Shown: positions 934 through 12,614 of the stretch, piece by piece
How positions within the stretch are numbered: position 1 is the first letter of the stretch
Layout of the letters: each line of letters opens with the position of its first letter
Notes under the pieces: model-generated
The model's database searches: none
What the model saw: only the letters and a program-made list of their open reading frames with translations
Told to the model about the DNA's origin: nothing
DNA from: Candidatus Hydrogenedentes bacterium CG07_land_8_20_14_0_80_42_17
GTDB lineage: Bacteria > UBA8481
Direction of reading: 5' to 3'
Length of the DNA: 12,614 bases
NCBI GenBank assembly: GCA_002780065.1
Contig: PEWQ01000083.1
Coordinates: forward strand, 1-12,614
Made by a program: the position numbers and the translations under genes

Positions 934-3306
934 ATGTCTAATTTATCTTGGAAATTCAAAGATGACGGTAAGATATTTGAAATTACGGGTAGTCCTAAAG
1001 TTCCATGGTCGCATGTAATAACAAATGGGAAATTTGGTTCTGTATGGACTGAACGCGGCGGAGCGTTTGCGTGGTGCGGAAACTCTTTGCTCGATCGATT
1101 GACTCGATTTGAACAGGATATCGTTCTGAATTCAGCACGCCGTTATATTTATCTTTTGGATTCATCAGGCATTGTCCGGACATTGACGCCTTCACCAATT
1201 CCGGGCGATGCCGTTTGGCGTGTTGAATATGGACCGGGTGTTGTCACTTATTATGGTGAATGCTCAAAATACAAAACTCGGCTCGATGTTGTTGTGTTAC
1301 CGGATATTAACGCGGAGATGCAGTATGCTGACGTTGAAAGCATTGACGGAACCGAGAAGAACATTCGCCTGTGCTTTGCGCAGGATATTCTTCTAGGAAC
1401 TTGGCCGGATACTCACAGAGAATTCCATAAACTTTTTATTCGCTCTGAATTAGCTGATTCTGCCGCCGGATCTCATCTCGTCTTTACAAAAGTGCTCGAT
1501 ACAAGACCTGGCCAGAAAGAAAATTGGAACGCTTCATTTCATGGAGCGCTTGCTGTCGGCTCTGCTCAAGGCATGGCAGGCTTTGAGACTGATCGATGTA
1601 CTTTTTACGGATACGCCGGCTCGGTAGAAAAGCCTATTCTTCTTTCAGAACCTCCACGGCGAGGAAGAACCGGTGCATGGGCTGATGCAATGTCTGCAAT
1701 CGATGTGCAGTGCAAGACCGGTGAAGTGACTGCTTTCATAAATGCGTTCGGTTCAAAGGAAGAGGTTTCATCTGTTTTTTCAAAAGCAGTTTCAGTCTCC
1801 CGAGAAACAGCAATTTATTCCATAAAAAAATTCTGGGAGAAAAATATTGGAGAATTAACCGCAGAAACTCCGTCGAAAGATATCAACTGCATGGCGTCGC
1901 ATTGGCTGCGCTATCAAACTATCGCGGCGCGGCTCATGGCGCGATGCGGGCTTTATCAAACTTCGGGAGCATTCGGTTTTCGAGATCAGCTTCAGGATTC
2001 AATGATATTTCTTCATTATGCACCTGAGCGCACCGAGGCTCAGTTGAAATTGCATCTTGCTCATCAGTTTGAAAAAGGAAATGTGCTTCATTGGTGGCAT
2101 CCCGAGACGAATACCGGAATCACTGAGAATTGCTCTGACGATTATCTATGGCCGATAATGACTGCTTCGGAACTGTATCACGAAACGGGCAGAACAAAGT
2201 TTTTAGACGAAAAGATAGAATTCATGGACAGCGCGCCGATGCCGATTTGGGATCACTTGAGATTGTCGGTTGATCGAGCGTGGGTTCGACGCTCTGAACG
2301 CGGATTGCCTCTGCTTGGCTCCTGCGACTGGAATGACGGGCTTTCGTCGGCAGGCGATAAAGGCAGAGGAGAATCCGTTTGGGTTGGACATTTCTATCAC
2401 ATTTTGCTTCTTGAGATGGCGGAGCTTGCTCGCGCGCGCGGCGAAGATCCTCTCGAATATTTGGAACGCGCAAAAGTTATTCGACAAGCAGTGAACGAAC
2501 ACGGATGGGATGGAGAATGGTTTATTCAAGGGACAAACGACGAGGGAAAACTGATCGGTTCTAATCAGTGTATGGAAGGTAAGATACATCTCAATCCTCA
2601 GACGTGGTCAATCATAGGGCGGACTGCTGTCGAAGATGAATCATCATCCGTTGAAAATATCGCATCTGAACTTAAATTTTCCGAGCGCGCGTATAAAGCG
2701 ATTGAATCTGTGAAAAAACATTTACTCGTTGAATGGGGCGTGCTTCTTCTCTCGCCGGCTTATTCGACTCCTGATGAATCGATCGGATACATCACAAGAT
2801 ATGCGCCAGGCGCGCGCGAAAACGGCGGAGTTTATACTCACGGCGCAATATGGACTGCCCGCGCCGCACGAATGATTCGCGATCGAGAACTTCTGCATCA
2901 AGTTATTTTCTCTTTACTCCCGCCTGTTCGAGGAAGAGATCCGCGATACTTTGCTGAACCGTATGTCACTCCCGGAAATATCGACGGCCCGATTACTCCT
3001 ACTCCGGGAAAAGGCGGTTGGACATGGTATACAGGCTCATCAGGCTGGCTCGAGCGAATTATCTTTGAGGACTTATTTGGAATCAGAGCCATGCCTGAAG
3101 GTTTGATATTGGATCCAATGGTTCCCGACGAGTGGAATTCGTTTAAAGTTGTCAGACCTTGGCGCGGTAAAAAATTGCATTTGAATTTTGTTCGAGGAAA
3201 TGAGCCTGGAATATCAGTTTTAAAAAAAGAGATCGGAGGAAAATTTTTAAGTTTCGCTTCATTGCCGGATTCGAATGAATTCGAAGTGACAGTGAGGTTT
3301 GTTTAA
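934..3306 (+). CDS. GH94 family glycoside phosphorylase (cellobiose/chitobiose phosphorylase-like)
   Basis: A 790-residue enzyme expected to cleave a beta-linked disaccharide or oligosaccharide with inorganic phosphate, releasing a sugar-1-phosphate in the cytoplasm. GH94 landmarks occur in order: FGFRDQLQD (residues 347-355), a TNTGITEN...SDDYLW block (about 391-406), DWND (465-468, holding the catalytic general-acid Asp), GRGESVW (477-483), ENGGVYTHGAIW (629-640, with the phosphate-site His) and GGWTWYTGSSGW (694-705). Length fits stand-alone phosphorylases rather than the giant cyclic glucan synthases, and there is no signal peptide. I chose ATG 934 because AAGGAG lies nine bases upstream at 919-924; an in-frame ATG at 901 has no ribosome site and abuts the operator. 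The GS-CDWNDG...GRGESVW context differs from the ADWNDC form I associate with classical cellobiose phosphorylase, so cellobionate, chitobiose, laminaribiose or another substrate remains open. Confidence 0.95.
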   Translation: MSNLSWKFKDDGKIFEITGSPKVPWSHVITNGKFGSVWTERGGAFAWCGNSLLDRLTRFEQDIVLNSARRYIYLLDSSGIVRTLTPSPIPGDAVWRVEYGPGVVTYYGECSKYKTRLDVVVLPDINAEMQYADVESIDGTEKNIRLCFAQDILLGTWPDTHREFHKLFIRSELADSAAGSHLVFTKVLDTRPGQKENWNASFHGALAVGSAQGMAGFETDRCTFYGYAGSVEKPILLSEPPRRGRTGAWADAMSAIDVQCKTGEVTAFINAFGSKEEVSSVFSKAVSVSRETAIYSIKKFWEKNIGELTAETPSKDINCMASHWLRYQTIAARLMARCGLYQTSGAFGFRDQLQDSMIFLHYAPERTEAQLKLHLAHQFEKGNVLHWWHPETNTGITENCSDDYLWPIMTASELYHETGRTKFLDEKIEFMDSAPMPIWDHLRLSVDRAWVRRSERGLPLLGSCDWNDGLSSAGDKGRGESVWVGHFYHILLLEMAELARARGEDPLEYLERAKVIRQAVNEHGWDGEWFIQGTNDEGKLIGSNQCMEGKIHLNPQTWSIIGRTAVEDESSSVENIASELKFSERAYKAIESVKKHLLVEWGVLLLSPAYSTPDESIGYITRYAPGARENGGVYTHGAIWTARAARMIRDRELLHQVIFSLLPPVRGRDPRYFAEPYVTPGNIDGPITPTPGKGGWTWYTGSSGWLERIIFEDLFGIRAMPEGLILDPMVPDEWNSFKVVRPWRGKKLHLNFVRGNEPGISVLKKEIGGKFLSFASLPDSNEFEVTVRFV

Positions 3307-3309
3307 ATT

Positions 3310-5271
3310 ATGAAAAAGAGAAATGCTAAAGTCAGAGCGGGAAGACTTGAGATTGACGGCAAACCGCAATTCCTTTATTCGGGAGAGATTCATTATTTTC
3401 GAATCGAACCTAATGAGTGGCGAGACAGACTTATAAAAGCAAAGTCTTTGGGATTGAATACGGTCTCAACTTACATTCCGTGGCGCTGGCACGAAATCGA
3501 GTCTCCACATGATGGAAATCCGCCCAAATTTGATTTTACCGGCACTACGGATTCGCGGCGAAATCTTATTCGATTCATTGAAGAGACTGAAAAATGCAAA
3601 CTGGATTTAATTCTTCGTCTTGGCCCAATTTCGAATGGAGAGATGCGGTTCGAAGGTTTGCCTGACCGAATAGCCAAAGATCCCCGGACAGTAGAATCGC
3701 CTGAATCTGCTCTGCATCATACAACAGCGCCGAATTATCTTGCGACAGCTTTTCTAAAACCTGCTTTGGAGTGGCTTAATTCTCTTTTACCTATCGTTGT
3801 GAAGTATCAGAGCACGAACGGGGGCCCTGTGACAATGGTTCAGCTCGACAATGAAATTGGAATGGTGCATTGGATCGGAGGACTAACTCTTAATTCACGG
3901 GTGTTTGCCGAATATTTTCGCCGACTGAAAAGAGATGCGGTTTCTGCAGGAATAAAAGTTCCTTTCATTGCGAACATTCCGCAGTTTTACGATTACGATA
4001 CGCGCAGCCGCGGCAACTGGGCTCCAGTGACTGCGCTCAATTTTGAGGAATTCGAATCTGCAGGCGTGGAGATCATGGGCGGGGCATATCAGCCGAGACG
4101 GCTTGATGCTGATAATTGCCATGATATCCATCTCGCAACTGAGGTTGTCAGGTCGATTCAGAAGAATTCTATTGCAATTTGCGCTGAGACTCAGACCGGA
4201 ATTCTTGTGGATCGTCCGAGACTTTATCCGAAAGATGTGCATCTTCTTCTTTCAATTGCTTCGATGACTCAACTCCGCGGATTGAATCTTTATATGCTTG
4301 CGGGCGGAGAAAATCCTGATGACCTTGGCGCATTCGGAATTGAGCACGATTGGCAGGCTCCGATTTCACCTTCAGGAAAGATTAGAGCTCATGCCGAGCC
4401 GATAAAAGAGTTCGGGGCAAAATTAAAAAAGCTCGAACCTTTTTTTGCATCAGGCGAGTCCTGGACTCCGGTGGATATTGCGGTTCCGGAAGAATACTAT
4501 CGGGGACAGAATAATCCTTTTTTTGCGGAATCGCTTCCTTGCTTCTTTGACGCTGCAGCACGGTCCCTTTTTCTCGAAGGATTTCCTCCGCGCTGGATAT
4601 GGATTGGAAGGAAAAAAAATCCGAGACTTCAGGAACGGCAGTTCAAGAGCCGCGTTGTATTTGCATTTTCACTTGGAAAGATGTCGGCTGAGTCTCAGAA
4701 AAAAATCCTAAGTCTAATTCGAAACGGAAAAACAGTTGTGATCTCGCCGAAACTGCCTGATAAGGATCTTGAAGGGAGACCGTGTCGAATTTTAGCAGAC
4801 GCTTTGAAAGCGGAATCGATCAGTATCGAGTCGGATCGGACGACTTCGAAAATATTTGGAGAGACTATTTTTAACATGACGAAACCTGCTCCGGTAAAAG
4901 TTGAATCCGCGGAGATATTTGGAGAGTGGGCAGGAAACACGATTGCATTCGAAAAGCAAATTGGAAAAGGAAAAGCGATTTATATCGGAGTATCGCTTTC
5001 GGACAGACAAAATTCGCAGGAAAGAGTATTTAAAAAATTGCTGATTCGATTGAAACTCCAACCGCTATTATCATTTCGGTCGGAAAATATCGAAAAACCT
5101 ATTTGCATGGTTAAGCGACTGAAAAAAGATTATCTTGTACTTATTGCCAACATGCATGAGACAAATTGGAGCGGCGAAATAATTTTGAAAGAAAGAAATA
5201 TGAAAGAGACTATTGCAGGACGCTGTGCGAGATTCTACATTTACAGAGGAGGCAGATTATGGCGAACGTAA
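3310..5271 (+). CDS. GH35-like glycosidase with GH42-type (amidotransferase-fold) C-terminal region
   Basis: A 653-residue protein. Residues 10-350 carry GH35 clan-A signatures: SGEIHYFR (24-31), NTVSTYIPWRWHE (50-62), RLGPISNGE (103-111), VQLDNEIG (177-184) with acid/base Glu182 after the diagnostic Asn, CAETQTG (291-297) with probable nucleophile Glu293, and LYMLAGGENP (327-336). Both catalytic Glu are kept, so it is likely active, removing a terminal beta-linked sugar. Residues about 410-560 (a SRVVFAFSL strand, a helix, then RNGKTVVISP) resemble the beta-galactosidase trimerisation domain of GH42 instead of the usual GH35 beta-sandwiches. No signal peptide is visible, so it should act in the cytoplasm. 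It starts three bases after the GH94 stop and overlaps the next gene by 13 bases. A GH35/GH42 hybrid layout recalls archaeal exo-beta-D-glucosaminidases, so beta-galactosidase should not be assumed. Confidence 0.85.
   Translation: MKKRNAKVRAGRLEIDGKPQFLYSGEIHYFRIEPNEWRDRLIKAKSLGLNTVSTYIPWRWHEIESPHDGNPPKFDFTGTTDSRRNLIRFIEETEKCKLDLILRLGPISNGEMRFEGLPDRIAKDPRTVESPESALHHTTAPNYLATAFLKPALEWLNSLLPIVVKYQSTNGGPVTMVQLDNEIGMVHWIGGLTLNSRVFAEYFRRLKRDAVSAGIKVPFIANIPQFYDYDTRSRGNWAPVTALNFEEFESAGVEIMGGAYQPRRLDADNCHDIHLATEVVRSIQKNSIAICAETQTGILVDRPRLYPKDVHLLLSIASMTQLRGLNLYMLAGGENPDDLGAFGIEHDWQAPISPSGKIRAHAEPIKEFGAKLKKLEPFFASGESWTPVDIAVPEEYYRGQNNPFFAESLPCFFDAAARSLFLEGFPPRWIWIGRKKNPRLQERQFKSRVVFAFSLGKMSAESQKKILSLIRNGKTVVISPKLPDKDLEGRPCRILADALKAESISIESDRTTSKIFGETIFNMTKPAPVKVESAEIFGEWAGNTIAFEKQIGKGKAIYIGVSLSDRQNSQERVFKKLLIRLKLQPLLSFRSENIEKPICMVKRLKKDYLVLIANMHETNWSGEIILKERNMKETIAGRCARFYIYRGGRLWRT
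5245..5252 (+). promoter_or_regulatory. Strong ribosome binding site fixing the ABC ATPase start
   Basis: AGAGGAGG ends six bases before ATG 5259 and lies inside the last codons of the GH35-like gene. It decides for ATG 5259 over an in-frame ATG at 5166, which would add 31 charged residues foreign to this family. Confidence 0.9.
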
Positions 5272-6356
5272 TTATCGACCGAGTAGGAAAGATTTATCCG
5301 AACGGATTTGTGGCGATGCATGAAGCAAACTTTGAGGTGCCTGACGGCTCATTTACGGTTTTGGTTGGACCTTCAGGCTGTGGTAAGACAACTCTCTTGA
5401 GAATGATTGCCGGACTCGAATTAATTTCGAACGGAGAAATTCGAATTGACGGGAAGCGAGTAAATGAAGTTCCTTCAAAGAATCGCGATATTGCGATGGT
5501 CTTCCAAGACTATGCTTTATACCCGCACATGACGGTTTACGAAAATATGGCGTATGCATTAAAACTGCGTTCGCTTCCTAGAGACGAGATAAAGAACCGC
5601 GTCGATTCTGCGGCGGAGATGCTCGAACTGAATCATACGCTTGATAGGAAACCGGCTCAGCTTTCAGGCGGACAACGCCAACGAGTTGCTTTAGGCCGCG
5701 CGATTGTTCGAAATCCCAAGGTCTTTCTTTTTGATGAACCTCTCTCTAATTTGGACGCGAAACTTCGTGTTCAGATGCGGAGCGAAATATCGAGACTGCA
5801 TAACAGATTGAAAGCAACGATGATTTACGTCACTCATGATCAGGTGGAAGCAATGACAATGGCGGATATGATTGTAGTTTTGAAGGACGGCTACATTCAA
5901 CAGATTGCTCCGCCGCTAGAACTTTATTCTCAGCCGAAAAATCTTTTTGTCGCCGGGTTTATCGGGAGCCCTCCGATGAACTTCATGAATGTATCTTTAG
6001 AAAACGAAAGGCGTTTGAGCGGTGACGGTTTTTCTGTCGGAGCTACGGAAGAATTGGCAAAGTTAGCGGTAATGCAGAAGCAAAAGGAACTTACTCTTGG
6101 AATACGTCCTGAAGACATTCATGACAGATTGTCGAGAATCGATGTTCCGCCTGATAGAATAGTGTCAGGTGTGGTTGAGGTAGTTGAACCGATGGGCTCT
6201 GAGGTTTTTGTCAGCGCGCGCATAAGCTCGAATTTAATTACGGCTAGATTTAGAGGAGATTTAATTCCGGAGGTAGGTTCAAGAATTGAACTCGTCTTCG
6301 ATATGACCCGCGCACATCTTTTTGATAAGGAGTCTGGGGCAAGGCTGGTAGAGTGA
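5259..6356 (+). CDS. ugpC: MalK/UgpC/MsmK-type sugar ABC importer ATPase
   Basis: A 365-residue ATPase of the carbohydrate uptake (CUT1) group, which powers an inner-membrane permease pair. Visible motifs are Walker A GPSGCGKTT (37-45), the Q-loop region MVFQDYALYPHMTVYENM (80-97), signature LSGGQ (135-139), Walker B FLFDEP with Glu160, D-loop SNLDAKLR (163-170) and switch His193 in VTHDQ. The C-terminal 130 residues include GFIGSPPMNF (233-242) and GIRPEDI (281-287), typical of the MalK regulatory/TOBE part. Length is normal. No binding protein or permease gene accompanies it in the window, so it is probably a shared energiser of the MsmX/MsmK kind or serves permeases elsewhere. The symbol marks the family; the substrate is not glycerol phosphate by context but a glycan breakdown product. 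It overlaps the GH35-like gene by 13 bases, which implies translational coupling. Confidence 0.94.
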   Translation: MANVIIDRVGKIYPNGFVAMHEANFEVPDGSFTVLVGPSGCGKTTLLRMIAGLELISNGEIRIDGKRVNEVPSKNRDIAMVFQDYALYPHMTVYENMAYALKLRSLPRDEIKNRVDSAAEMLELNHTLDRKPAQLSGGQRQRVALGRAIVRNPKVFLFDEPLSNLDAKLRVQMRSEISRLHNRLKATMIYVTHDQVEAMTMADMIVVLKDGYIQQIAPPLELYSQPKNLFVAGFIGSPPMNFMNVSLENERRLSGDGFSVGATEELAKLAVMQKQKELTLGIRPEDIHDRLSRIDVPPDRIVSGVVEVVEPMGSEVFVSARISSNLITARFRGDLIPEVGSRIELVFDMTRAHLFDKESGARLVE

Positions 6357-6391
6357 TGAGTGATGCGTGGTGCGTGATGAATGATTAATGA
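6353..6391. repeat. 7-bp degenerate tandem repeat (GTGATGA/GTGATGC)
   Basis: Consecutive heptamers GTGATGA (6353-6359), GTGATGC (6360-6366), GTGGTGC (6367-6373) and GTGATGA (6374-6380) are followed by decayed ATGATTA and ATGAGAT. The array begins within the stop codon of the ABC ATPase gene and fills most of the 57-bp gap before the first diguanylate cyclase. Read on the other strand it encodes a His-His/Arg-Ile-Thr pattern that I recall from dispersed heptamer repeats in environmental genomes. No hairpin with a T tract is present, so it is not a terminator. Confidence 0.8.
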
Positions 6392-6413
6392 GATTCGCAC
6401 CTCGCGCTGAGAT

Positions 6414-7655
6414 ATGTTTGATACAGCGTTAATATTTGGAATTGCATCATCGATCGCTTTGATTGCCGGCATTAGCCTTTCAATAAGAAATGCGGCTCGC
6501 ATTGGAACTATTTTGTCGGCTATTGCTTTTGCATTTGCCGTTAAAAATTTTGAAAATTCATTTATTCAAGCCGCTCTATTTTTCTTTGCCCCGCCGTTAC
6601 TAGCTGCTCTATCTTCATATTCGGCGGAACAAATAAAGAGCATGATTAATCTCTCTTCATCTTTTGAAATTGAACGGAAAGGGATTATTGAAGAAATTCG
6701 CCGGCAAGTAATTGAATCGAAAAAAAGAAAAGAGTTGATAGATACTCAGACGTCTATTTTTGAATACTTGAATAATCTTTCTTATCGATTTGGATTTTGT
6801 AAAAACACTGAAGATGTAAAGAACGAAATTATTAATGGAGCCAAAAAAATACTTAATTGTTCTGATGTCGGAATAATCGAATTTGATTATTTAAATACTT
6901 CAAAGAATGAATTGTCGAAGTGTTTTGAAGATATCTCTCTTCCTTGCCGGCGCAATATGAAAGACGGCAGATACGCAATAGTCGCAGTTCTTCTCCGAGG
7001 CGAACTATGCGGCGGGAAAAAGTATTTATTATACGCTGTCAGAGAATCTAAATGGACAAACATGGAATTGAGGCTTCTCTTTACTCTTTCGGAGATCGGC
7101 TCAACTGCGTTTCAGTCTGCAATCTTTTATGAAAAAATCGAAGAGGAGGCTGTGCATGACGCTCTGACAGGACTCGCCACCAGACGTGCGATAGAAAAAA
7201 TTATTTCGAAGGAGCTTGCTTTATCCCGCCGAGCAGAACGCTTACTTGCCGTATCAATTCTCGATATCGATCGTTTCAAAAAAGTTAATGATACTTGGGG
7301 TCATGAAGCAGGAGACGATATTCTCTGCAAATTTGGAAATGCGATTAAAAATTTCATTGAGAACAGAGAAGAGGTAAAAGGCCGGATAGAAGCAGGCAGA
7401 TACGGCGGAGAGGAATTCATTATAATTTGCCGCGAATCCGATTCTACTTATTTGGCGTCGATTATCGATATGCTTAGAGAAACAGTAAAAAACAGCATAT
7501 CTAAACCTGACGGAACTCCTTTGATGTTTTCGGCCGGAGTATGCGAATTCCCGTTGCACGGTTCAAATATGAATGAACTATTTCTAAATGCGGATAAGGC
7601 TCTTTATCACGCTAAGGCAAGCGGTAGAGACAGAGTTAGGATTTGTGCGTCATGA
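6414..7655 (+). CDS. Membrane-anchored diguanylate cyclase (GGEEF), no canonical I-site
   Basis: A 413-residue protein that should make cyclic di-GMP from two GTP at the inner membrane. Residues 3-70 are hydrophobic with two to three membrane segments, 80-115 is a charged probable coiled coil, and about 118-240 looks like a degenerate GAF-type sensory region. The GGDEF domain follows from 247: DALTGLATRR (249-258), LDIDRFKKVNDTWGHEAGDD (283-302) with metal ligand Asp284 and guanine-contact equivalents Asn292 and Asp301, then RYGGEEF (329-335). These residues predict activity. The RxxD product-inhibition site that normally lies nine to six residues before GGEEF is replaced here by KGRI (322-325), so feedback inhibition is probably lost. 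The start codon has only a weak ribosome site (TGAGAT). The stop overlaps the next start as ATGA. Confidence 0.94.
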   Translation: MFDTALIFGIASSIALIAGISLSIRNAARIGTILSAIAFAFAVKNFENSFIQAALFFFAPPLLAALSSYSAEQIKSMINLSSSFEIERKGIIEEIRRQVIESKKRKELIDTQTSIFEYLNNLSYRFGFCKNTEDVKNEIINGAKKILNCSDVGIIEFDYLNTSKNELSKCFEDISLPCRRNMKDGRYAIVAVLLRGELCGGKKYLLYAVRESKWTNMELRLLFTLSEIGSTAFQSAIFYEKIEEEAVHDALTGLATRRAIEKIISKELALSRRAERLLAVSILDIDRFKKVNDTWGHEAGDDILCKFGNAIKNFIENREEVKGRIEAGRYGGEEFIIICRESDSTYLASIIDMLRETVKNSISKPDGTPLMFSAGVCEFPLHGSNMNELFLNADKALYHAKASGRDRVRICAS

Positions 7656-8770
7656 ACGCACTCGTGATAAGTGGAATTTTATTATCTCTGTTAGGCTTTT
7701 ACTTTGATTATGAAATATTGAAATTCGGTTCAGGTATTTTGATCCTTATTGCATTGTGGTGGAGAGAAAAGGAAAATATTTTGGAAGGCTCTCCGAAAAA
7801 ATATTTTCTGCTTTGCGCAACTGCTTTTATTTTGTCGGGTCTTATCGTATATTTGCCGGCGCTAATCCTTTTAGCCGCATTTTATTTTTCTGCGTTTAAT
7901 ATTCACATGAAGGTTAAAAAAATATTCGCCGATAAAAAAAGAATTTTTGATTCAACAGAAGATGAGATAAGAGAAGCTGAAAAGGAAAGAAAAGAAGTTG
8001 ATAGAATTGAAGAAGAAAGCCGGCGCAGTCTGAAAGATGCGGAAGACAAATCCAGGCTTTTACGTTTAATTCTTGAAGTTTCTGAAGTAGACGAAGTCGT
8101 AAAGACTCTTCATAAAGTTTTTACTGAGCTGAAGCAGTTGAAAGGAATTAAACTGATTTGTTCTCGAAGGAAAGATGAAATTTCGGTTAATGAAGATGTA
8201 GAACCTTGGGTTTCAAAATTTATACAACCGTTTCTTGGACAGGCCCGGCTTGTTTTACTTAAAACGATGCGTATGGAGACTCTAAAAAAAGTATCGCGCT
8301 CGGATTGGCTGACAGGTTTGCCTAACAGAAGAGCTTTGGATGAAAACGTTGAATCTGAAAAACATCGCGCAGTTGCGCTGGGATTATCTCTAAGTTATCT
8401 TATGCTGGATATTGATTACTTTAAAAAATTTAACGACAATTACGGACATGCGGTTGGAGATTTTGTTTTAGTTGAGATTGCCAAGGTGATCAATGAAACA
8501 GCTCGTAAAACAGATTCTGTTGCCAGATATGGCGGCGAGGAATTTTGCGTATTACTTGCAGAAACCGGCATCGAGCCTGCTATGATATTTGCGGAGCGAT
8601 TGAGGAAGAGAATAGAAGATATGCCTTTACTGCCGCCGGGGCATTCTTCGCCTTTGAGAGTCACAGTCTCGATTGGAGTATCCGAACGAAGTTTGGCTTC
8701 TGCTGATGAGGCTCTGTATCTGTCAAAACAGAATGGACGGAATAGAGTTTCGGTGGTCAGTGACAACTAA
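7652..8770 (+). CDS. Membrane-anchored diguanylate cyclase (GGEEF) with intact RxxD I-site
   Basis: A 372-residue second cyclase. Residues 3-82 hold about four short hydrophobic segments in two pairs, 88-135 is a highly charged coiled coil rich in Glu, Lys and Arg, 136-205 is a short linker or reduced sensory region without a recognised domain, and 215-370 is the GGDEF domain. It has LTGLPNRR (220-227), LDIDYFKKFND (252-262) with Asp253 and Asn261, Asp270 in HAVGD, and RYGGEEF (292-298). RKTD at 285-288 is in exactly the I-site position, so it should be inhibited by its product. ATG 7652 overlaps the preceding stop (ATGA), indicating coupled translation; a TTG three codons earlier is less likely. 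The last 11 bases overlap the exporter ATPase gene. Confidence 0.94.
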   Translation: MNALVISGILLSLLGFYFDYEILKFGSGILILIALWWREKENILEGSPKKYFLLCATAFILSGLIVYLPALILLAAFYFSAFNIHMKVKKIFADKKRIFDSTEDEIREAEKERKEVDRIEEESRRSLKDAEDKSRLLRLILEVSEVDEVVKTLHKVFTELKQLKGIKLICSRRKDEISVNEDVEPWVSKFIQPFLGQARLVLLKTMRMETLKKVSRSDWLTGLPNRRALDENVESEKHRAVALGLSLSYLMLDIDYFKKFNDNYGHAVGDFVLVEIAKVINETARKTDSVARYGGEEFCVLLAETGIEPAMIFAERLRKRIEDMPLLPPGHSSPLRVTVSIGVSERSLASADEALYLSKQNGRNRVSVVSDN

Positions 8771-10952: not shown

Positions 10953-12614
10953 ATGATGAAATTGAAATGCCATATTGAAAAGAACAAATGGAATAAATTA
11001 ATTTCTTGTTTATTCGTTTTTCTGCTTATTGTCTTCTCCATAAATAAAGCAGACGCTTCAGCCTACAATACAATTTCGACGATCGATGGAACTCTTTCCG
11101 GATATGCAGATGATGAAAAGCGGACGAATAGTACTGGCACAGATTGGGCTGGAAATGTAATTAACTATGCGTATGTGACTTGGGATACGACATATCTCTA
11201 CATCGGCGTTGACGGAGATATGAGTAGCGACCTAAACGAACTCATAATTTATGTTGATAAAGATTACGGCTCATCGAATGGATCTAAGTCATTGAGCGAC
11301 AATGTAGGTGATCTAGACAACACGATTTCGTATTGCGGTATCGAAGACGTTCCGTCAGACGCGAATTTTCTGCCTGACTTTGCGATTGGCTGGGAAGCTG
11401 ACAACGGCAATAACGGAATCCGTGGCTGGGCTAGCGCTGGCACGACTTATACAGGTGCGGTCGACAATTTCGGTTGGTATCCTGACGGCGGCAATGGACT
11501 TACTATACAAGGCGGCGGCTGGAGTGGTGAATACGAAGCAAGAATCGAGTGGGATGATTTTTTCGGAAGTGCGACTTTGCCGGATACAGCACGGATTGCT
11601 ATCCTCATCGGCATTGGAAATGATGGGGCACATTCGAATCAATTCATCCCTCAAGACGGCTCTTCAGTTTGGGTCATCAACGTAACGAATTTCGAAAAAA
11701 AGCCGATTACTTTATGGTCGCCCGCGAACAACCGTCCCTGCACGGGGGCGCTGATGATTACCGAAATCTTTTGCGAAGGCACGGGTACGAATTACGAGGG
11801 GATGGAACTTTATAACTTCTCCAACCATATCATCGACCTGCAGAACTACCGCATGCTCGAAGACTGGCCGGCCCTTGGAAAAGCAACCGACATGCAGACG
11901 ATCACAAAGCTCCTGGTCGGCGACTCTTTCCTGATCTCCCCACATAAAATGGTGACGATTACGGAGATCGGCACGCTGGCGAAATTCAACGCGGCCATGC
12001 CGAACGCGCAAGGGAACGTATTTGCGCTGAACGGCACCATCACATTGACCGATGCAGGTTCGACCCCAGACTCGGTGGGCATCTATCCTCCTTATTCCGC
12101 TTCCGAGACCTGGCCGATCGATCTCCTCAGCTACAACATCGCGACCGCCGTTAAACAATCCTATGAGAAGAAGGACATCACCTTGAATGAATGGGGAACG
12201 GCTATCGGTTCGAACTGGGCGGTTGACAACGATCCTGACACCGGCACACCTGGCACTCACAATACGGTTTCAGCGCGAACTATCGATCTTGTCTCTACTC
12301 AAACTTCAATTAGTGGAGGCGACAGCTCGTATTTAACTTTTTCTGTAAAGAATACTAACACGAACGACAGTATCCAATGGGACTCGGTCGTCTTCGAGAT
12401 AACCTCCGCGCTTGGCGGAACGCTTACAGGCGGCGGCACGACTTACGAGACTTATACTTATTCGAATGGAGTAGCATTCGCAAAATATACGTCTCCCGGC
12501 ACTGGCGGGACCGAGACCATAATTGCATACGTAAAATATTACATAGATTCAACTACCGCAAGCGGAGTAGACACTGTCGCGATTACCGTAATAGTCGATC
12601 CGAATCCGCCAGTC
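10953..12614 (+). CDS. Exported surface protein, DOMON/CBM9-like + Lamin-tail + Ig-like domains (partial, runs off the right edge)
   Basis: An open frame of 554 codons with no stop before the window ends, so the C-terminus is missing. Residues 11-37 form a signal peptide (basic KWNK, hydrophobic core, ADASA). Residues 40-250 resemble a DOMON/CBM9-like beta-sandwich: STIDGTLSGYADD, YAYVTWDTTYLYIGVDGD, LNELIIYVDKD and a later YEARIEWDDF. Residues 267-437 are a Lamin-tail domain: LMITEIFCEG, YEGMELYNFSNHIIDLQNYRM and the closing DTGTPGTHN. Residues 440-554 begin an Ig-like fold (SYLTFSVKNTN, GVAFAKYTSPGTGG, TVAITVIVD). Such proteins are usually extracellular and modular; no catalytic site is visible. 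DNA for the Lamin-tail domain (about 11715-12255) is GC-richer and prefers C-ending codons, unlike the flanks. Start: ATG 10953 or 10956, both without a ribosome site. Confidence 0.85.
   Translation, partial: MMKLKCHIEKNKWNKLISCLFVFLLIVFSINKADASAYNTISTIDGTLSGYADDEKRTNSTGTDWAGNVINYAYVTWDTTYLYIGVDGDMSSDLNELIIYVDKDYGSSNGSKSLSDNVGDLDNTISYCGIEDVPSDANFLPDFAIGWEADNGNNGIRGWASAGTTYTGAVDNFGWYPDGGNGLTIQGGGWSGEYEARIEWDDFFGSATLPDTARIAILIGIGNDGAHSNQFIPQDGSSVWVINVTNFEKKPITLWSPANNRPCTGALMITEIFCEGTGTNYEGMELYNFSNHIIDLQNYRMLEDWPALGKATDMQTITKLLVGDSFLISPHKMVTITEIGTLAKFNAAMPNAQGNVFALNGTITLTDAGSTPDSVGIYPPYSASETWPIDLLSYNIATAVKQSYEKKDITLNEWGTAIGSNWAVDNDPDTGTPGTHNTVSARTIDLVSTQTSISGGDSSYLTFSVKNTNTNDSIQWDSVVFEITSALGGTLTGGGTTYETYTYSNGVAFAKYTSPGTGGTETIIAYVKYYIDSTTASGVDTVAITVIVDPNPPV

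Follow-up and report, generated by a model that had tools for sequence, protein, structure and literature searches.

The window analyzed here is the entire contig C104 (12,614 bases) of the home genome, G000, a metagenome-type assembly of 207 contigs and 2.39 Mb at 86.9% completeness; the phylum is represented in this analysis by one further genome, G001, which belongs to the same order. On the forward strand at the end of the window, an open reading frame of 554 codons (10953–12614) marks the gene of a putative exported multidomain protein, which runs off the contig at position 12614. The protein starts with a hydrophobic stretch, predicted to be a signal peptide, and its sequence is repetitive, rich in Thr, Ser, and Gly, and of extracellular type. 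Most likely the gene encodes a tandem-domain protein that is exported to the surface or matrix. Elsewhere in the window, 6414–8770 is occupied by a pair of GGDEF (diguanylate cyclase) genes arranged head to tail, their ends overlapping.

All features of the gene lie on the forward strand. The N domain (residues 36–250; 11058–11702) has native codon usage and no Pfam match. A linker (residues 251–266; 11703–11750) follows and carries the 5′ edge of a composition change, with a GC3 of 0.765 over residues 250–266. The high-GC3 block itself (residues 255–437; 11715–12263; GC3 0.71) is LTD-like and foreign in codon usage, with a Pfam LTD match at residues 264–376 and a whole domain of approximately residues 267–437. 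The C-terminal region (residues 438–554; 12264–12614) is incomplete and again native in codon usage (GC3 0.46); its Invasin_D3 match in Pfam is nonsignificant (E = 0.41), and it is perhaps an Ig-like/invasin-type domain.

Assignment of the block to the LTD family combines profile scores and motifs. PF00932 scores 25.7 bits on the excised region (E = 1.5e-5) and 23.3 bits on the whole protein, below the gathering cut-off of 34.3 bits, and we therefore term the block LTD-like. Although its score sets it apart from bacterial LTD proteins (PF00932), it shares their xITEI...ELYN start and W...GTPG..N end; the start follows the pattern (I/V)xE(I/V) plus ELYN, and the E, Y, N, and W are invariant in an alignment of the block with the other LTDs of the home genome. 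As to the Ig-like beta-sandwich fold of the family, AlphaFold2 on the single sequence, without an alignment, gave a mean pLDDT of 31.9, too low to be of use, and hhalign of the block against other LTDs returned a probability of 57% over 41 columns. A comparable layout is that of ExeM of Shewanella, an exported multidomain protein that likewise carries an LTD; cells do not need this LTD to degrade DNA, and it has been suggested to act in membrane association (PMC6085458). Unlike ExeM, the target encodes no nuclease domain within its available stretch.

The composition of the gene changes markedly at the block, and by more than the hand count of the first-pass annotation had indicated. Hand counts in the first-pass annotation had put G+C near 54% in the block and near 47% and 46% in its flanks, and a recount agreed: 53.7% at 11701–12000 and 54.0% at 11801–12100, against 43.7% at 11101–11400, 49.7% at 11401–11700 (together about 47%), and 46.3% at 12301–12600. 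The step is steeper in GC3, which is 0.71 in the block versus 0.455 at residues 61–249 and 0.462 at residues 438–554 (P = 1e-8, Fisher test), so that total G+C understates it (~7 points versus ~26 points in GC3). GC12 is level across block, N flank, and C flank (0.464, 0.473, and 0.479, respectively), placing the difference in third positions only. For reference, GC3 in the home genome averages 0.385 (sd 0.051; 796 ORFs of at least 200 codons, 1.24 Mb). The block’s reported preference for ATC, CTG/CTC, and AAC was confirmed, with ATC at 12 of 14 Ile codons, AAC at 12 of 15 Asn codons, and CTG or CTC at 10 of 14 Leu codons; the flanks use ATC for 11 of 28 Ile codons and AAC for 8 of 22 Asn codons. 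Both G-ending and C-ending codons rise in the block (G3 from 0.16 to 0.31, C3 from 0.29 to 0.40).

A scan with no prior on position recovered residues 255–431 (11715–12245) as the best segment, with a log-likelihood gain of 19.9 versus at most 11.8 in 300 within-gene shuffles of synonymous codons. In within-gene contrast, the target tops the 686 home genes of at least 250 codons (runner-up 14.4), in rankings that cover 1.24 Mb of the 2.39 Mb, or about half of the home genome. The 95% intervals for the edges are 11628–11769 at the 5′ side and 12053–12281 at the 3′ side, an uncertainty of ~70–115 bases in either direction. Both intervals include the predicted domain edges, and the coincidence of block and domain edges described in the annotation is thus genuine to within roughly 100 bases, short of base-exact agreement. 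The reading frame is uninterrupted through N flank, block, and C flank, as had been noted for both joins. A microhomology between the edges (CGCGAAC..., 10 of 12 matches, at 11723 and 12274) is not beyond chance, with ~0.1 expected by our own estimate. Weaker internal stretches of foreign-type codons occur in the home genome in L026 (483–1745), L084 (141–2270), and L074 (9662–11095), which are glycerophosphotransferase-like, glucoamylase-like, and FtsX/MacB-like, respectively.

Codon tables of the home genome and G001 (57.3% G+C, GC3 0.647) separate the block from its surroundings. The block favors G001 usage by 45.9 nats, and the flanks favor home usage (30.2 nats for the N flank, residues 41–254; 23.2 nats for the C flank). 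Scored in 183-codon windows, the home genome averages −42.5 (sd 15.7) and G001 +43.4 (sd 17.0), which puts the block at the center of the foreign distribution. Within the gene, the foreign-type score is maximal over 11718–12230, a segment that ranks third among 796 genes, and the two genes above it look foreign over nearly their whole length. G001 is not thereby the donor, since several genomes of GC3 0.6–0.8 fit equally well. Most LTDs that equal the block in GC3 exceed it in GC1 (0.48 in the block), although the LTDs of G001 have GC1 values just as low.

Two other sources of the codon bias were considered and rejected. An LTD-intrinsic bias is ruled out by 23 LTDs of other genomes, whose GC3 step relative to flanks averages −0.001 (sd 0.052, maximum 0.076) against +0.213 at the target block by the same measure; the five other LTDs of the home genome (GC3 0.35–0.54) likewise have no comparable edge step. 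High expression was also rejected as a cause, because home-genome frames resembling ribosomal proteins L4, L23, L2, S19, L22, and S3—named by sequence and by their order around the L2 match—have a GC3 of only 0.35–0.46, and high expression here does not imply high GC3.

Homologous proteins show that the domain arrangement also exists outside the home phylum. When the nearly full protein was searched against the phylum of G072, two long matches (E = 1e-41) emerged, L176 (G394) and L177 (G398), both reaching from the N domain through the linker into the beginning of the LTD; the linker motif PA...P is common to all three proteins. In these two proteins of another phylum the order is N domain, linker, LTD, and then further extracellular-type sequence, with LTDs that exceed the Pfam cut-off (40.2 and 41.2 bits). 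The order is thus like that of the target, but GC3 is fairly even along these genes (0.41–0.50 in L176, 0.36–0.37 in L177) and the LTD is distant: the N domains are 42–45% identical to the target’s, versus ~22–27% for their LTDs against the block. Between L176 and L177 themselves, identity is 69% in the LTD and 88% in the N domain; LTDs diverge faster than N domains, so low LTD identity alone proves nothing. The N domain (~215 aa), present in the target and in L004 and L176–L182, represents an uncatalogued extracellular domain family: Pfam has no match for it, yet 8 of 16 genomes in the phylum of G072 do, and some of these matches lack an LTD.

Searches for the origin of the block itself returned no donor or close relative among 386 genomes related to G000, the phylum of G054, viral contigs, plasmids, phages, and genome contigs searched by pattern, a set of collections that is not exhaustive. 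A match in G140 (L092, E = 4.6e-4) was set aside, because its alignment is confined to the block’s later half and it lies in a repetitive protein without the LTD start. Three results favor replacement over vertical descent. With the linker removed from the query, L177 is not among the matches; the L177 LTD finds better matches in LTDs of G001 and of home gene L015 than in the block; and in a maximum-likelihood tree of 48 LTDs, the block groups with domains from G054, G059, G056, and G010 (support 95/92), apart from L176/L177. Against replacement, the block is the longest branch of that tree, and forcing it into a clade with L176/L177 costs only 1.2 log-likelihood units and is not rejected (p-AU 0.463). 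Of the refuting results named in the first-pass annotation, a missing GC3 step at the domain edges did not materialize; proteins with the same domain order do exist, but on whether their history matches, the LTD tree is neutral. Because this clade is not rejected and low LTD identity is uninformative, composition is the main evidence for a swap.

Taken with its native flanks, the foreign composition of the block fits a laterally transferred gene fragment. We consider the gene a real codon-usage mosaic that is probably best explained by lateral replacement below the level of the gene: in a native gene of a low-GC genome, the DNA of a middle LTD-like domain would have been replaced by its equivalent from an organism of GC3 ~0.6–0.8. 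DNA of a higher-GC LTD gene would have been taken up, the linkers flanking the domain may have been the sites of recombination, and the swap would be too recent for the block’s codons to have drifted to host usage. Points against this reading are that the collections searched yielded neither a donor nor a close relative of the block, that the LTD tree tolerates a clade with L176/L177, that the edges are placed only to within ~70–115 bases, and that GC1 of the block is low for its GC3. Of the annotation’s proposal that a domain was inserted or swapped from a higher-GC source, the swap is retained, on the strength of codons typical of GC3 0.6–0.8, native flanks, and the lack of an LTD-wide step. 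Insertion is not: the N domain–LTD order in another phylum means that “inserted” yields to “replaced” or to vertical descent with odd codons. Domain swaps should be tolerable in a protein of tandem domains, and a swapped LTD would alter one module while leaving the rest unchanged.

Whether protein domains are transferred laterally as units is a long-standing question. Sub-gene replacement is itself a known process, with transferred fragments inside genes reported in Escherichia coli/Shigella (PMC3212841); the present case is neat, rather than new, in that the segment approximates one domain. It resembles the gene fragments previously described as laterally transferred (Chan et al. 2009, PMC2639706; PMC3212841) in being a seemingly foreign stretch within a resident gene. 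Those fragments were detected by discordant orthologue trees, whereas this one was detected by codon usage and no donor was found. According to a systematic study, regions that encode domains do not, as a rule, serve as modules of transfer (PMC2639706), whereas the target stretch is about one whole domain. A compositionally marked, in-frame, domain-sized block in a surface protein, from a phylum represented here by two genomes, is a concrete case on which that conclusion can be examined. It is possible, and short of probable, that one domain was exchanged nearly at its edges between distant bacteria, replacing an older LTD at the same position, with the domain as the unit of transfer. Our literature search found no published report of this gene or of swapping among bacterial LTDs.

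A rather unlikely alternative is that the LTD descended vertically with the N domain and that its codons became GC-enriched in place, by codon or mRNA selection or by biased gene conversion. The old position of the LTD, the linker motif shared with the homologues, the compatible LTD tree, and the match of block and flanks at codon positions 1 and 2 are all consistent with such descent. Against it, the within-gene contrast is unmatched in 686 genes, LTDs elsewhere have no step, highly expressed home genes are not GC3-rich, and the joint rise of G- and C-ending codons is not obviously expected of translational selection.

Misassembly, in which another organism’s DNA was joined in as the block, is unlikely: two independent in-frame joins near the domain edges would be needed, around an LTD at its ancestral position and rebuilding an order found in another phylum, and the block contains no N. 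That a chimera keeps even this probability reflects the metagenome-type assembly of 207 contigs, the position of the gene at a contig end, and, in part, scaffold C203, which has an N gap within a stretch that turns GC-rich. On that scaffold (locus L089, ~4000–6673), G+C climbs from ~0.40 at first to 0.67 near the contig end, with the N run, a scaffold gap, in between; the last gene has a GC3 of 0.73, the highest of the sample. The stretch was either imported or wrongly scaffolded.

Import of the entire gene from a higher-GC source, with its flanks later replaced by, or drifting to, home codons, is highly improbable. The nearly full protein finds no match in G001, the only other genome of the order, and flank GC3 (0.44–0.46) lies slightly above the genome mean, as such an import would allow; both flanks nevertheless fit home codon usage, and drift would not spare one domain.

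Recombination among paralogues, which the annotation had offered as a second origin for a shared high-GC LTD, is barely credible: the home genome does hold six LTD matches in five genes, but none is close to the block (14–24% identity) or has its codon usage, and a protein search of the whole assembly, 87% complete, returned the block alone.

In L015 (C195 of the home genome, 5127–9263) and L097 (C101 of G001) the domain order is a different one, with an LTD after a DOMON-like stretch; the two genes appear to be orthologues of one another, which makes them a useful native comparison for the target gene. At L012 (C192 of the home genome), a 1329-aa protein with two LTDs (3877–7866) is followed by an RHS-like repeat protein, and directly upstream of it lies a GC-rich transposase-like gene (1485–3700) that is apparently split by a frameshift.
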